This document shows, in pieces, positions 1 to 4,326 of a DNA stretch of 48,256 nt. The notes beneath the pieces are model-generated. The model did not search any database, was not told the DNA's origin, and was given only the letters and a program-made list of their open reading frames with translations. Where the stretch lies: assembly GCA_012513645.1 (NCBI GenBank), contig JAAZBU010000018.1, positions 1 to 48,256 on the forward strand, given 5' to 3'. Origin of the DNA: Clostridiales bacterium. GTDB taxonomy: Bacteria; Bacillota; Clostridia; Christensenellales; Aristaeellaceae. A program made the position numbers and the translations under genes. The stretch's first letter is position 1, and each line of letters opens with the position of its first letter.

Positions 1-1381
1 CCAGCAGCGTGTAGCGGGATGCGGCAGCGCTGTCATTATTCAGGAAGGATGTGCCCTTGCGGTCAGCCAGCGGCACGGCCATGTAGGTGTCGGCCAGGGC
101 ACACAGCTGGGCGAAGGTCTTGGGCACCAGGTACCTGGACAGGCCCAGCTGCGCCCAGGTCTCGTCCCTGCCAGCGCCAAACTGGTAGGTGCCGCCAAAG
201 ATGCCGACCGGCAGGGCATAGGCGTTGCCATCCTGGCTGACGGCCTGCTGAATGCTTTGGTGTATGCGGGCGACTTTGCCGGCGATGACCGGGTCATCCG
301 ACAGGTTCAGCAGGCGTCCGTCCTTTACCAGGCTGCTGAAATCACCCTGTGTGAGGGATATGTAGGCCACGTCCCAGGCGTTTTCGGGGTTTAATATGTG
401 CTCAAACTCCGCATCATATTCCACTTGAATCCTTTCGATCTGACGGGCGGGGTTCTCGGCCAGAAAAACCTCGTCCATGCTCCAGCCGTAGCCCAACACC
501 CTGACGATACCCGGGGCGGACGGGGGTGCCGCGGCCGGCTCTGCCGGCGGGGTCTGGGCGGCAATCTCGGCCTTGGCGGTCGCAGACAGGGCGGGGGATA
601 CGCGCACCGTCCAGGCATCCCGGTGCAGGTCATCCCGCATGCCCTGGGCATCCGTCTCGCGGAAGCCGACAGACATCGACAGGTCATAGCTCTCCGCCCG
701 GCGCAGCTGTCCATCGCTCACCGAAAAGGCAAAGCGCACGGTACCATCCTCCTGCGGAATCAGGCTGTATCCGGTGTCTGCCTCCACGGCCTGTTGGCCG
801 ATGACAATGTTGTTCACCCGCACCCACATCGTCAGCATCCTGGCGCCATGATTTGCCGCCAGCTCGCTGTAGCTGAGCGCGGTATCCGGGATGTTCATCT
901 CCATGTCATAGTGCACGGCGTAGCCGGCAGGGTCGTTCACGCTGTAGTCCTCGGGCACCAGCACCACATTGCTGCCCGCCTTGGGGGCAATGATGCCCGT
1001 GCCGTACAGGCCCGGCATATTGCCCTCGGCCTGGTAGACCACTTCCTCCAGGGTGACCAGCAGGTCGTCAAAGGCGTGGGTTTGGCCGACGGTTGCGATG
1101 TCGCCCTTGAGCAGGGCCTCCTCCTTCTCCTTGCCATAGAGGAAGCCGAACACCTCGGCCGTGGGGGACAGCATGGCTGCGACTGCAACAGCCGCCAGCA
1201 GCAGCGTCAGGGCCAGCGCCAGGGCGAGGCCAAGGCTTAGTTTCTTTTTCATTACAGGGGTCTCCTTTCCCGCTTTCAGGTAATCCAGGTTGTGCGCAAC
1301 AAAGGCGGTGAAGGCAGGGGGCGTCTCGGGGAACAGCGCTTTCAGGCGCTCGCTGCTGAGCGCATTCTTTTTCTTCATCAT
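1..1381 (-). CDS. Membrane anti-sigma factor with extracellular solute-binding-protein-like domain (3' end off window)
   Basis: This open frame is absent from the ORF track because it runs off the left edge. About 460 residues are visible. Residues 1-43 are polar and include the FPETPPAFTAFV stretch, like the cytoplasmic tail of clostridial anti-sigma factors. A hydrophobic segment follows (about 48-70, LGLALALALTLLL). The outside part has a beta-rich region of the kind seen in DUF4179-type anti-sigma proteins, a Pro/Ala-rich linker near 300, and then a stretch resembling family-1 ABC solute-binding proteins (AWDVAYISLTQGDFSSLV, then ALPVGIFGG). The start ATGATG overlaps the stop of the sigma gene (ATGA), which implies translational coupling. 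An internal ATG at 1252 would give a plain signal peptide, but the upstream frame is open and coupled to the sigma gene, so I prefer 1381. Anti-sigma function is inferred from position and topology. Confidence 0.72.
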   Translation of the reverse strand, partial: MMKKKNALSSERLKALFPETPPAFTAFVAHNLDYLKAGKETPVMKKKLSLGLALALALTLLLAAVAVAAMLSPTAEVFGFLYGKEKEEALLKGDIATVGQTHAFDDLLVTLEEVVYQAEGNMPGLYGTGIIAPKAGSNVVLVPEDYSVNDPAGYAVHYDMEMNIPDTALSYSELAANHGARMLTMWVRVNNIVIGQQAVEADTGYSLIPQEDGTVRFAFSVSDGQLRRAESYDLSMSVGFRETDAQGMRDDLHRDAWTVRVSPALSATAKAEIAAQTPPAEPAAAPPSAPGIVRVLGYGWSMDEVFLAENPARQIERIQVEYDAEFEHILNPENAWDVAYISLTQGDFSSLVKDGRLLNLSDDPVIAGKVARIHQSIQQAVSQDGNAYALPVGIFGGTYQFGAGRDETWAQLGLSRYLVPKTFAQLCALADTYMAVPLADRKGTSFLNNDSAAASRYTLL

Positions 1382-1854
1382 GGGGCTACCTCCCAGTCCA
1401 CTAACCTTTGTTTGAGTGCCCGGCGGGCGCGGAACAGCCTGTTTTTTACCGCTGTTGCCGTGATGCCCAGCGCCCGGGCGGTCTCTTTGGCAGTAAAGTT
1501 TTCCATGTAGTAGAGCAGCACGGGCGTGCGCAGGTTTTCGGGCAACAGCGCGATGGCCGCGCTCAGCTCCGATTCCTCCGGCTGGTGTTCTTCCCCGGTG
1601 CTTATCACCTCGGTCACGGGGGATACGCGCATGCGCTGGCGCTGGATGTTGCGGCACTCGTTGATCACGATGCGCGTGAGGTAGGGCCGGAAACGCGCCG
1701 GGTCTACCCTGTCGCGCGTGGACCAGGCCTTGAACAACGCCTGCTGCACGGCGTCCTTGCAGTCTGCCTCATGGCGCAGTATGCTCATGGACAGTCGGTA
1801 CAGCGCCGGTGTCAGCGCCAGTGTCTCCTCGGTAAACTGTTCAACAGAAATCAT
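1378..1854 (-). CDS. ECF-type RNA polymerase sigma factor
   Basis: An alternative sigma factor of 158 residues, a normal size for the ECF group. Region 2 lies at about 12-75 (LYRLSMSILRHEADCKDAVQQA, then the promoter-melting part). Region 4 lies at about 100-155 and carries the helix-turn-helix TAKETARALGITATAVKNRL. The ORF track begins 48 codons upstream, but the start at 1854 has AAGGAG seven bases before it and gives the standard N-terminus (MISVEQFTEE). Its stop overlaps the start of the anti-sigma/solute-binding fusion, so the two are probably co-translated and the sigma is held inactive at the membrane. I could not fix a promoter upstream, although the AT-rich stretch near 1915-1925 is a candidate for an autoregulated site. 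Confidence 0.88.
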   Translation of the reverse strand: MISVEQFTEETLALTPALYRLSMSILRHEADCKDAVQQALFKAWSTRDRVDPARFRPYLTRIVINECRNIQRQRMRVSPVTEVISTGEEHQPEESELSAAIALLPENLRTPVLLYYMENFTAKETARALGITATAVKNRLFRARRALKQRLVDWEVAP

Positions 1855-1972
1855 GAACTGCTCCTTACAGGGGTACATACCTTGAAAGCGCGGATGCATC
1901 CTCTTGCTCTCATTTATATATACGGCCGGGAAGTGCAAAAGGATAGATAAAAAGAAAATATGATGCCCGGCA

Positions 1973-2042: not shown

Positions 2043-3053
2043 CTACTCCTGCACCCGCCAGATCAGGATGGTCAGCGCGCCGTCCTGGGCGCTGCCGTCG
2101 ATGCGCACGGGGAAGGGATACAGGTTGCGGAAGACCAGGTTGAGGTTTTTGTTGCCCACGGCAGCATCCGCGTGCAGCGGCAGGTAGCTGGCCCCGCTGG
2201 GCCCGTGGGGGCGGCGCTTGAGTATGTTCAGGCCGGGCAGCTGCATCAGCGCGTTGTACAGGGTGCTGCTCACCTGGCAGGTGCCGCCGCCGTAGCCCAG
2301 CACGGTTTCGCCGTCCACCAGCACATTGGCCGGCAGGTAGCCCGAGCGCGCGTTGTAGGGCCCCACATCGCGGTTGAAGTCAAAGACTTCGTTTTGCGCC
2401 ATCACAAAGGGGCGCATGCGCTCACAGGCCACGGTGATGTTCTGCATGCGGCCCAGGTTGGTTTCATCGGTGGTGATGCGGTAAAAGGAGGTGTAGGCCG
2501 CGATGGGGGCGCTGTCGTCCGCCGTGTCCACGCTGTCAAACAGGGGCTGCAATTCGCTCAGCAGCCGGGTATCGACATACCCGTACTGGCGGTGGTAAAT
2601 CAGCTTGCCCCAGCCGTTTTCCATGCCGATAAAGGCCAGCCGTGCGCCGGGATGCAAGGTGATCAGCGTGTCGCTGCCGGCATCGGGCGCGGCCTTGACG
2701 GGCGCCTCCTGCGCCACCCAGCCGATGTAGCCGGAGGTAACGGCGGGGTACTTGGGCGTGCGCGCCGCATCCACCGGAGCCACCCGGGTATCGTCCACAT
2801 AGCGGCGCCGCACATAGCCGGTCATGCCATTGGTGCGGATGTACAGCCAGTCGGGCGCCATCTCCAGAATTTCGATGGGGTAGCGCACGGACAGGTAGCT
2901 GACAATGGGCGCGTCATTATTGGGCTGGCTGAGCAGATGCGTTGGCTTGGCCAGCCTCCCGGTGTACAGCGCCGCGGGCTCCGCCGCCTGCTGTGCCACG
3001 GCGGATGCCGTCAGCAAAATCAACAGCAGGATGACCGCAACGGCGCGCTTCAT
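2043..3053 (-). CDS. Secreted SH3-repeat VanW family protein (copy 2)
   Basis: An exported 336-residue protein with a signal peptide at 1-22, two SH3-like repeats (about 28-95 and 105-165) of the wall-binding kind, and a VanW domain at about 180-336. The VanW signature GGGTCQVSSTLYNA starts near residue 255 and is followed by the usual RRPHG. VanW proteins are found beside glycopeptide-resistance genes and in many clostridial envelopes, but their biochemical role is not firmly known. The start ATG overlaps the stop of the upstream VanW paralogue (ATGA), and this is the last gene of the operon. It is a diverged duplicate of its neighbour with the same domain order; nothing here points to vancomycin resistance. 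Confidence 0.88.
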   Translation of the reverse strand: MKRAVAVILLLILLTASAVAQQAAEPAALYTGRLAKPTHLLSQPNNDAPIVSYLSVRYPIEILEMAPDWLYIRTNGMTGYVRRRYVDDTRVAPVDAARTPKYPAVTSGYIGWVAQEAPVKAAPDAGSDTLITLHPGARLAFIGMENGWGKLIYHRQYGYVDTRLLSELQPLFDSVDTADDSAPIAAYTSFYRITTDETNLGRMQNITVACERMRPFVMAQNEVFDFNRDVGPYNARSGYLPANVLVDGETVLGYGGGTCQVSSTLYNALMQLPGLNILKRRPHGPSGASYLPLHADAAVGNKNLNLVFRNLYPFPVRIDGSAQDGALTILIWRVQE

Positions 3054-4099
3054 GAGCGGATATCGTCCCGGTAAAAGGCGATGAACAGCACGCCGTCCTG
3101 CACGTGGGAGCTGATGCGGATGGCAAAATCGTAATCGTTGCGGAAGATGAAGTTGAGGTCGCCCGAGGAGGCGTCCACCCCATGGGGCAGGTAGGGGGCG
3201 CCGTTGCGCCCGTGGGGCGCGCGGGCCAGCACGGTCAGCCCGGTCAGCTGCAGCACCACGTTGTACAGCGTGCTGCTCAGCTGGCAGCTGCCGCCGCCCA
3301 CCGAGGGCACCAGTTCGCCCTCAAACAGACCCCAGGAGCTGAGGTACCCGTTGCGGCGGGAGAAGGGGCCCACGGTGCCGTTGAAGTCCAGCGTCTCGCC
3401 GGGCTGCATCACGCGGTCCATGCGGTCCACGCCCACCTTGATGTTCTCGATGCGGTTGAGGTTCATGTCATTCTCGGCGATGTTGTAAAACGAGTTGTAG
3501 ACGGCCAGCGGGGTCAGCTGGTCGCCGCTTTGCTCGTTGGGTGCAACCATCTGCAGGTCGGGCAAATTGGCCGTGTCCACATAGCCAAACTGACGCTTGA
3601 AGATCAGCCGTGCCCAGCCGCTCGATATATCCACAAAGGCCAGCTGCGTGCCCGCCTGCAGGGTGATCAGCACCTCGCTGCCCACCTCCGGCGCGGCCAT
3701 CACCTGGGTCTCCCTGTCCAGCGTGGTGTAGTACTGGCTGACCACCGTGCCGTAGCGCGGCGTGGTCACAGGATCCACCGCCACGATGTTGGAGGTGCGG
3801 TGCCGCAGCACAAAGCCCGTGCGCTTGCCGTAGTTGATCTCCAGGTAGTTGGGCAGCACATCCACAATGTCGATGGAGGAGCCGGCCTTCAAGGTGCCCA
3901 GGCGCTTGACGCTGCTGTCCGGGCTGATCACGTCGGGCGTGTAGTAGACGCCTGTGCCGCTGTCCGCCCCATAATCCAGCGAGATGCGCCCGGTATAGAT
4001 CACGGGCTTTTTGGTGGCGGCAATAGCGCCCTGGGGGGCAGCCATGCCCAGCACGAGGGCGAGAAGCATCAGGCACGCGGCCAATCGTTTTTTCATCAT
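3050..4099 (-). CDS. Secreted SH3-repeat VanW family protein (copy 1)
   Basis: A 349-residue paralogue of the next gene: signal peptide (MMKKRLAACLMLLALVLG), two SH3-like modules (about 35-100 and 115-175), then a VanW domain with GGGSCQLSSTLYNV near residue 268. I start it at the ATG at 4099 because AAGGAG sits eight bases upstream; the GTG at 4108 used by the ORF track is directly against that ribosome site. It begins just after the DUF896 gene and overlaps the downstream VanW gene by four bases. The tandem arrangement suggests duplication followed by divergence, with both proteins working at the cell wall. Confidence 0.87.
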   Translation of the reverse strand: MMKKRLAACLMLLALVLGMAAPQGAIAATKKPVIYTGRISLDYGADSGTGVYYTPDVISPDSSVKRLGTLKAGSSIDIVDVLPNYLEINYGKRTGFVLRHRTSNIVAVDPVTTPRYGTVVSQYYTTLDRETQVMAAPEVGSEVLITLQAGTQLAFVDISSGWARLIFKRQFGYVDTANLPDLQMVAPNEQSGDQLTPLAVYNSFYNIAENDMNLNRIENIKVGVDRMDRVMQPGETLDFNGTVGPFSRRNGYLSSWGLFEGELVPSVGGGSCQLSSTLYNVVLQLTGLTVLARAPHGRNGAPYLPHGVDASSGDLNFIFRNDYDFAIRISSHVQDGVLFIAFYRDDIRS

Positions 4100-4104
4100 G
4101 AGGT

Positions 4105-4326
4105 TCACTCCTTGTTGTCGGGGGTTTGCTTTTTCTCGAGCTTTTTGTAGCTGCCGTCCTCCTGCTGGAGGTACACATTGTCCAGCTGCTGGCGGAATCC
4201 GTCGCGGAAGTCGGCCAGGTATTCGCGCCGCAGGTCCTCCAACTCAATCAGCTCAGCGCTGCTGAGGCCCTGCTCGCGCTTTTTGCGCGACAGCGAGAGC
4301 ATGTATGCTACCCTCTCCTTATCCAT
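4105..4326 (-). CDS. DUF896 family small cytoplasmic protein (YnzC-like)
   Basis: A 73-residue charged protein matching the DUF896 pattern: LSRKKREQGLSSAEL followed by LRREYLADFRDGFRQQLDN. The family is small and helical, widespread in Bacillota (YnzC in Bacillus), and its role is not settled. The ATG at 4326 is preferred to the TTG at 4335; AGAGG lies upstream. It overlaps the end of the Lgt-like gene by eight bases and ends just before the first VanW gene, so it is translated inside the envelope operon. A housekeeping DUF896 protein among envelope genes is a slightly odd neighbour. Confidence 0.85.
   Translation of the reverse strand: MDKERVAYMLSLSRKKREQGLSSAELIELEDLRREYLADFRDGFRQQLDNVYLQQEDGSYKKLEKKQTPDNKE

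Follow-up and report, generated by a model that had tools for sequence, protein, structure and literature searches.

Does a gene that overlaps an ECF sigma factor gene encode an anti-sigma factor whose outer end is a solute-binding protein (SBP), and could such a protein switch transcription by capturing a ligand? The question is raised by the window analysed here, a stretch of 48,256 nucleotides that constitutes the whole of contig C116 from the 2.0-Mb genome of an anaerobic member of the Christensenellales, assembled in 175 contigs and 77.9% complete. Open reading frames and Pfam place a sigma factor gene at 1378..1854 (-), and its 158-residue product is an ECF sigma factor by its small size and by having sigma70 regions 2 and 4 only (Sigma70_r2, 5.1e-10; Sigma70_r4_2, 4.7e-15). 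An earlier note on this DNA had described an ECF sigma gene overlapping a second gene by ATGA, and inspection of the reading frames, the strand and the overlap agreed with that description. The stop/start overlap (1378..1381, (-)) would couple translation of sigma and anti-sigma, and the same four bases overlap in the full-length orthologs and in many relatives. The second gene does leave the window, as had been stated: its reading frame opens at 1381 and stays open to base 2, where the contig end cuts it.

The visible part of this second gene (2..1381, (-)), delimited by its reading frame and by full-length relatives, encodes 460 residues of an anti-sigma/SBP fusion that has lost its 3′ end at the contig end. 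The predicted membrane protein with a cytoplasmic part, one helix and an outer region was borne out by a single hydrophobic segment in the fragment (19-residue windows starting at residues 46-63) and by a beta-rich outer domain. Judging from the topology given by that segment and from the upstream sigma gene, residues 1-44 (1250..1381, (-)) would be cytoplasmic and are presumed to bind sigma. The transmembrane helix, placed by hydrophobicity and the family alignment, spans about residues 46-68 (1178..1246, (-)). At its outer end lies a signal-peptidase-type A-x-A motif (residues 66-68; 1178..1186, (-)), which is near-invariant in the family alignment, A66 being present in 45 of 47 members and A68 in all 47. 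This membrane region, probably of DUF4179 type, precedes the anti-sigma factor's beta-rich outer domain (about residues 92-262; 596..1108, (-)), which was delimited by alignment, Pfam, AlphaFold and Foldseek. There follow a Pro/Ala-rich linker without a signal peptide (residues 263-290; 512..595, (-)), seen in the sequence of the fused proteins, and the N-terminal part of an SBP domain (residues 291-460; 2..511, (-)), assigned from profiles and relatives. We regard this fusion architecture as near certain.

The earlier note had proposed looking for the sigma gene and fusion as a pair in related genomes, and a search of the family's genomes found it in four more. These in-frame orthologs (51-53% identity) come from three genera other than that of the window, bringing the total to five genomes of four genera. 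The intact fusion is 684-687 residues long (G310, 684; G180, 687); the ortholog of G155 has 671 residues with a run of N, and that of G316 is broken by a contig edge. All four are also in public assemblies (DHQX01000005.1 from Christensenella sp. UBA5327, which is placed in Christensenellales; JAQUWD010000008.1; LFTR01000241.1; JAQVQY010000092.1). A candidate for the lost tail of the window gene lies right where another contig of this genome begins (G000:C87:3-509, (+); L145:3-509). It encodes 168 residues, ends in a stop codon and is 43% identical to the corresponding C-terminus of a full-length relative. This tail was recovered with a full-length query, the window fragment having given no match in a first scan of the genome contigs. 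C116 and C87 probably adjoin with a short gap, in which case the start of C87 would be the end of the window gene. The extension that had been called for thus yielded a probable tail, joined to the window part by inference across about 50-70 codons that are unseen between the contigs.

SBP-like motifs had been reported in the outer segment, and they were found at residues ~335-400; the window fragment alone, however, matched no SBP in Pfam, NCBIfam or the PDB. Since the window was not enough to establish what the domain is, full-length relatives were used. One of these matched SBP_bac_8 (8e-6) and SBP_bac_1 (9.7e-5) in Pfam, both just below the cut-off. The isolated domain of L123 reached 27.8 bits against the 27-bit cut-off of SBP_bac_8, over residues 51-284 of the domain, and SBP_bac_1 was matched by 10 of 16 related domains. 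When a 16-domain profile was compared with the PDB, the best match was the xylo-oligosaccharide binding protein 3ZKK (E 5.3e-13), and the leading matches were nearly all carbohydrate ABC SBPs. Alignment by hhalign with two canonical SBPs of neighbouring loci gave 94.7% probability over 274 columns, and the fused domain aligned over its whole length with separate SBP genes (E down to 5e-43). AlphaFold models built from 5-6 sequences had a mean pLDDT of 50 (full-length) and 42 (SBP-only) and were unreliable in the SBP part; a Foldseek search with the full-length model gave raffinose-binding SBPs as its best rows, at E 0.002 and low TM. The match of the C-terminus to an SBP fold therefore stands at the level of sequence profiles, the models being too poor to show the fold itself. 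SBP ancestry of the domain is near certain.

Comparison with the orthologs revealed a conserved ECF-type promoter ahead of the sigma operon, CTATC-N17-CGTATA at 1919..1946 (-). The motif CTA[AT]C-N17-CGTATR occurs upstream of sigma in all five fused loci, and G002, which had been left out of motif discovery, carries it with one mismatch. It is likely that sigma autoregulates its operon. Upstream of sigma the window holds two tandem SH3-VanW genes (2043-3053 and 3050-4108, (-)). A VanW gene adjoins sigma in the window and in three orthologs, and the sigma promoter motif (0-1 mismatch) precedes the SH3-VanW gene in two of the five fused loci. In the fifth, UBA5327 (L124), a sugar ABC/catabolic operon with its own SBP takes the place of VanW. 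A regulon search with the motif gave few matches beyond the sigma promoters themselves, and since the upstream genes differ among the fused loci, no single regulon is evident. Between the promoter and the start of sigma lies another conserved element, a leader block (GAGAGC...GATGCATC...GCTTTC; 1884..1911, (-)) that contains a 6-bp stem. In the form GARAGC...GATGCATC...GCTTTC it is found in the window, L121, L123, L124, L093 and L045, where its conservation is far above that of its surroundings; the stem is kept in 6/6 with G-U changes only, and in some cases the block is out of frame with sigma.

Among the closest known systems is RsiV/sigma V of Bacillus subtilis (DUF4179, ECF30), in which an ECF sigma factor is likewise paired with a single-pass anti-sigma factor; the DUF4179-type membrane region of that protein is probably shared as well. 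In RsiV, DUF4179 holds the membrane segment and the signal-peptidase site, and binding of lysozyme opens the site to signal peptidase so that sigma V is released (PMC6066255). In both proteins an A-x-A-type position for signal peptidase follows directly outside the membrane, and the outer ligand-binding part of RsiV (PMC6066255) has a presumed counterpart here; however, RsiV binds lysozyme through an unrelated outer domain, whereas the outermost part here is an SBP domain. In the present family a conserved S-x-T-A-E-x-F-G-x-x-Y-G segment follows the A-x-A. Its helical moment is low, and the amphipathic-helix guard of RsiV was therefore not reproduced by this simple test.

The reading that we favour, with moderate confidence, is that a single protein serves as receptor and switch for an ECF sigma factor, through a ligand-loaded SBP domain and proteolytic release of sigma. 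At rest the anti-sigma factor would keep sigma at the membrane, with a carbohydrate-type SBP domain attached at its outer end by a flexible linker. On closing around its ligand, the SBP domain would act on the beta domain of the same anti-sigma factor and on the region next to the membrane. Signal peptidase could then cut at the A-x-A just outside the membrane, as it does in RsiV, and a site-2 M50 protease would cut within the membrane; the genome encodes one M50 protease and two signal peptidases (S26). Freed sigma would drive transcription of the sigma operon itself and also, at least in some relatives, of the neighbouring SH3-VanW cell-envelope gene. In relatives whose SBP is secreted as a protein of its own, the SBP would presumably dock on the anti-sigma factor, a contact that the fusion would make permanent. 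The outer domain of sugar-catching type, together with the occurrence of both halves as neighbouring genes in relatives, suggests that the genes are probably turned on when a molecule is captured. Release of sigma by ligand-triggered proteolysis is plausible; we infer the binding of a ligand, its class (a sugar), the cleavage, the direction of the switch and the regulon.

It is less likely that the SBP-like domain has lost ligand binding and acts as a protein- or wall-contact module, the signal being envelope stress or a protein partner, comparable to lysozyme for RsiV. Such a role would fit the SH3-VanW envelope genes, which stand beside the operon in four of the five fused loci and have the promoter motif ahead of them in two. 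It would also fit the divergence of this SBP family (15-27% identity outside the fused group), the SBP domains that follow a beta-propeller-like half in secreted paralogs, and the second, non-SBP outer module found at this position in many relatives. Against it, the SBP likeness covers both halves of the domain, and carbohydrate SBPs predominate among its best PDB matches. We consider it improbable that the domain serves an ABC importer, with the anti-sigma part reading the permease or transport state through it. Transport SBPs are its best PDB relatives and a sugar ABC/catabolic operon precedes the fused locus L124, but that operon has its own SBP, no permease gene was seen beside the other fused or split loci, and by eye the separate SBPs have no lipobox-like cysteine at the end of the signal peptide.

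The favoured receptor also presupposes that the membrane protein is an anti-sigma factor. A domain-family search of the window protein gave no anti-sigma domain family above its cut-off, which would suit an unrelated sensor that is merely co-transcribed with sigma. The DUF4179 score of this protein, about 15-16.3 bits, is far under the 30.1-bit cut-off, Pfam gave no match to the RsgI N-terminal anti-sigma domain even with E allowed up to 1, and a profile of the anti-sigma domain had no significant match in the PDB. Across the family, however, 23 of 45 members matched DUF4179 (best 1.5e-7) and one reached the cut-off. In 48 of 51 family loci the sigma gene lies immediately upstream of the anti-sigma gene. 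The three exceptions comprise one locus truncated at a contig end and two whose start the automated count misplaced. Foldseek also returned 3FBQ, a solved DUF4179 anti-sigma ectodomain of Bacillus anthracis BAS1627 (probability 0.90, E 0.039, 7% identity). This weak match is the highest-probability row and was attributed to the beta outer domain; BAS1627, unlike the present protein, has no SBP domain. Given the adjacency, the 4-base overlap in many loci and the DUF4179-type layout, an anti-sigma role is very likely and an unrelated sensor very improbable.

How the two halves came together is indicated by nine relatives in which sigma is followed by a shorter anti-sigma gene (about 263-280 residues) and this in turn by a gene of its own for a secreted SBP, signal peptide included; the genes often overlap by 4 bases. 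The Pro/Ala/Thr linker of the fused proteins takes the place of this signal peptide, and the window-group fusions form one clade with 100/100 support in a tree that held the four with a full anti-sigma half. The separate genes in relatives point to a natural fusion of operon neighbours and not to a frameshift. That an assembly artefact or frameshift joined two genes, for which the contig end that cuts the window gene and the separate genes in relatives could be cited, has a negligible probability and was ruled out by the identical in-frame joint in four other assemblies from other genera. The frameshift test set by the earlier note was accordingly passed: relatives do have separate genes, and the joint is nonetheless genuine.

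A divergent sixth SBP fusion is present in G179 (L101:2236-4132; G179:C119), where it is cut by a contig end. With its own linker and a long branch, it possibly represents a second, separate origin. L101 had also appeared to carry a second type of outer module, but only because the protein was itself part of that module's profile; the signal vanished on rebuilding. The second module, of ~340 residues and without a Pfam family, is fused to the anti-sigma factor in 21 relatives and separate in 4. Examples, fused to or beside members of the same anti-sigma family, are L054:1857-3650, L116:1014-2081 and L117:1554-2618; the module has a weakly PepSY/YycI-like C-terminus. Fusion and adjacency together suggest, by Rosetta-stone reasoning, that the outer modules physically act on the anti-sigma factor. 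Extended to the family, this would describe a class of ECF switches with interchangeable outer modules (the SBP or the second domain), fused or secreted from next door, in which extracellular solute receptors directly gate sigma by regulated proteolysis; we give this broader reading an even chance. All clear fusions and split pairs that were found lie in one family. No fusion or split pair was found in sampled genomes of the order's other families, a class-level genome sample gave one SBP-only match, and a search of viral contigs gave no match.

Among known systems, the RsgI anti-sigma-I factors of Clostridium thermocellum combine an anti-sigma factor with an outer module of carbohydrate-sensing type (PMC6056542), as is proposed here. 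Unlike the fusion described here, RsgI uses CBM/GH modules to sense polysaccharide, and its partner, sigma I, does not count as a standard ECF factor. The carbohydrate ABC SBPs (SBP_bac_1/SBP_bac_8, e.g. 3ZKK) share the sequence family of the C-terminal domain, but in the present protein that domain is attached to an anti-sigma factor, and most loci have no permease gene next door. In histidine kinase systems such as LuxP-LuxQ, ChvE-VirA and BvgS, a separate or fused SBP senses the ligand for a membrane signalling protein; their output is a phosphorelay, whereas here it would be release of sigma. A literature search restricted to open-licence papers found no report of SBP-fused anti-sigma factors, and within that literature these known parts occur in a combination without earlier report. 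Should the gating reading hold, SBPs would serve a third kind of output in addition to ABC import and histidine kinases. Confirmed ligand binding would mean that sensing of a soluble solute is wired straight to a sigma factor. Synthetic biology would gain sigma switches controlled by a ligand, and there would be a way to study how anti-sigma factors of the RsiV type gain new inputs. The natural separate-gene versions make the docking partner and interface testable.

SBP domains of this kind also occur in other settings. The genome of the window encodes two tandem secreted proteins in which a beta-propeller-like half is followed by a similar SBP domain (L012:2569-7076; G000:C108), and such long beta-propeller-like and SBP secreted proteins are common in the family. 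In G169 an orphan SBP of the same family (L111:2263-3549; G169:C8) was seen with no sigma or anti-sigma neighbours.
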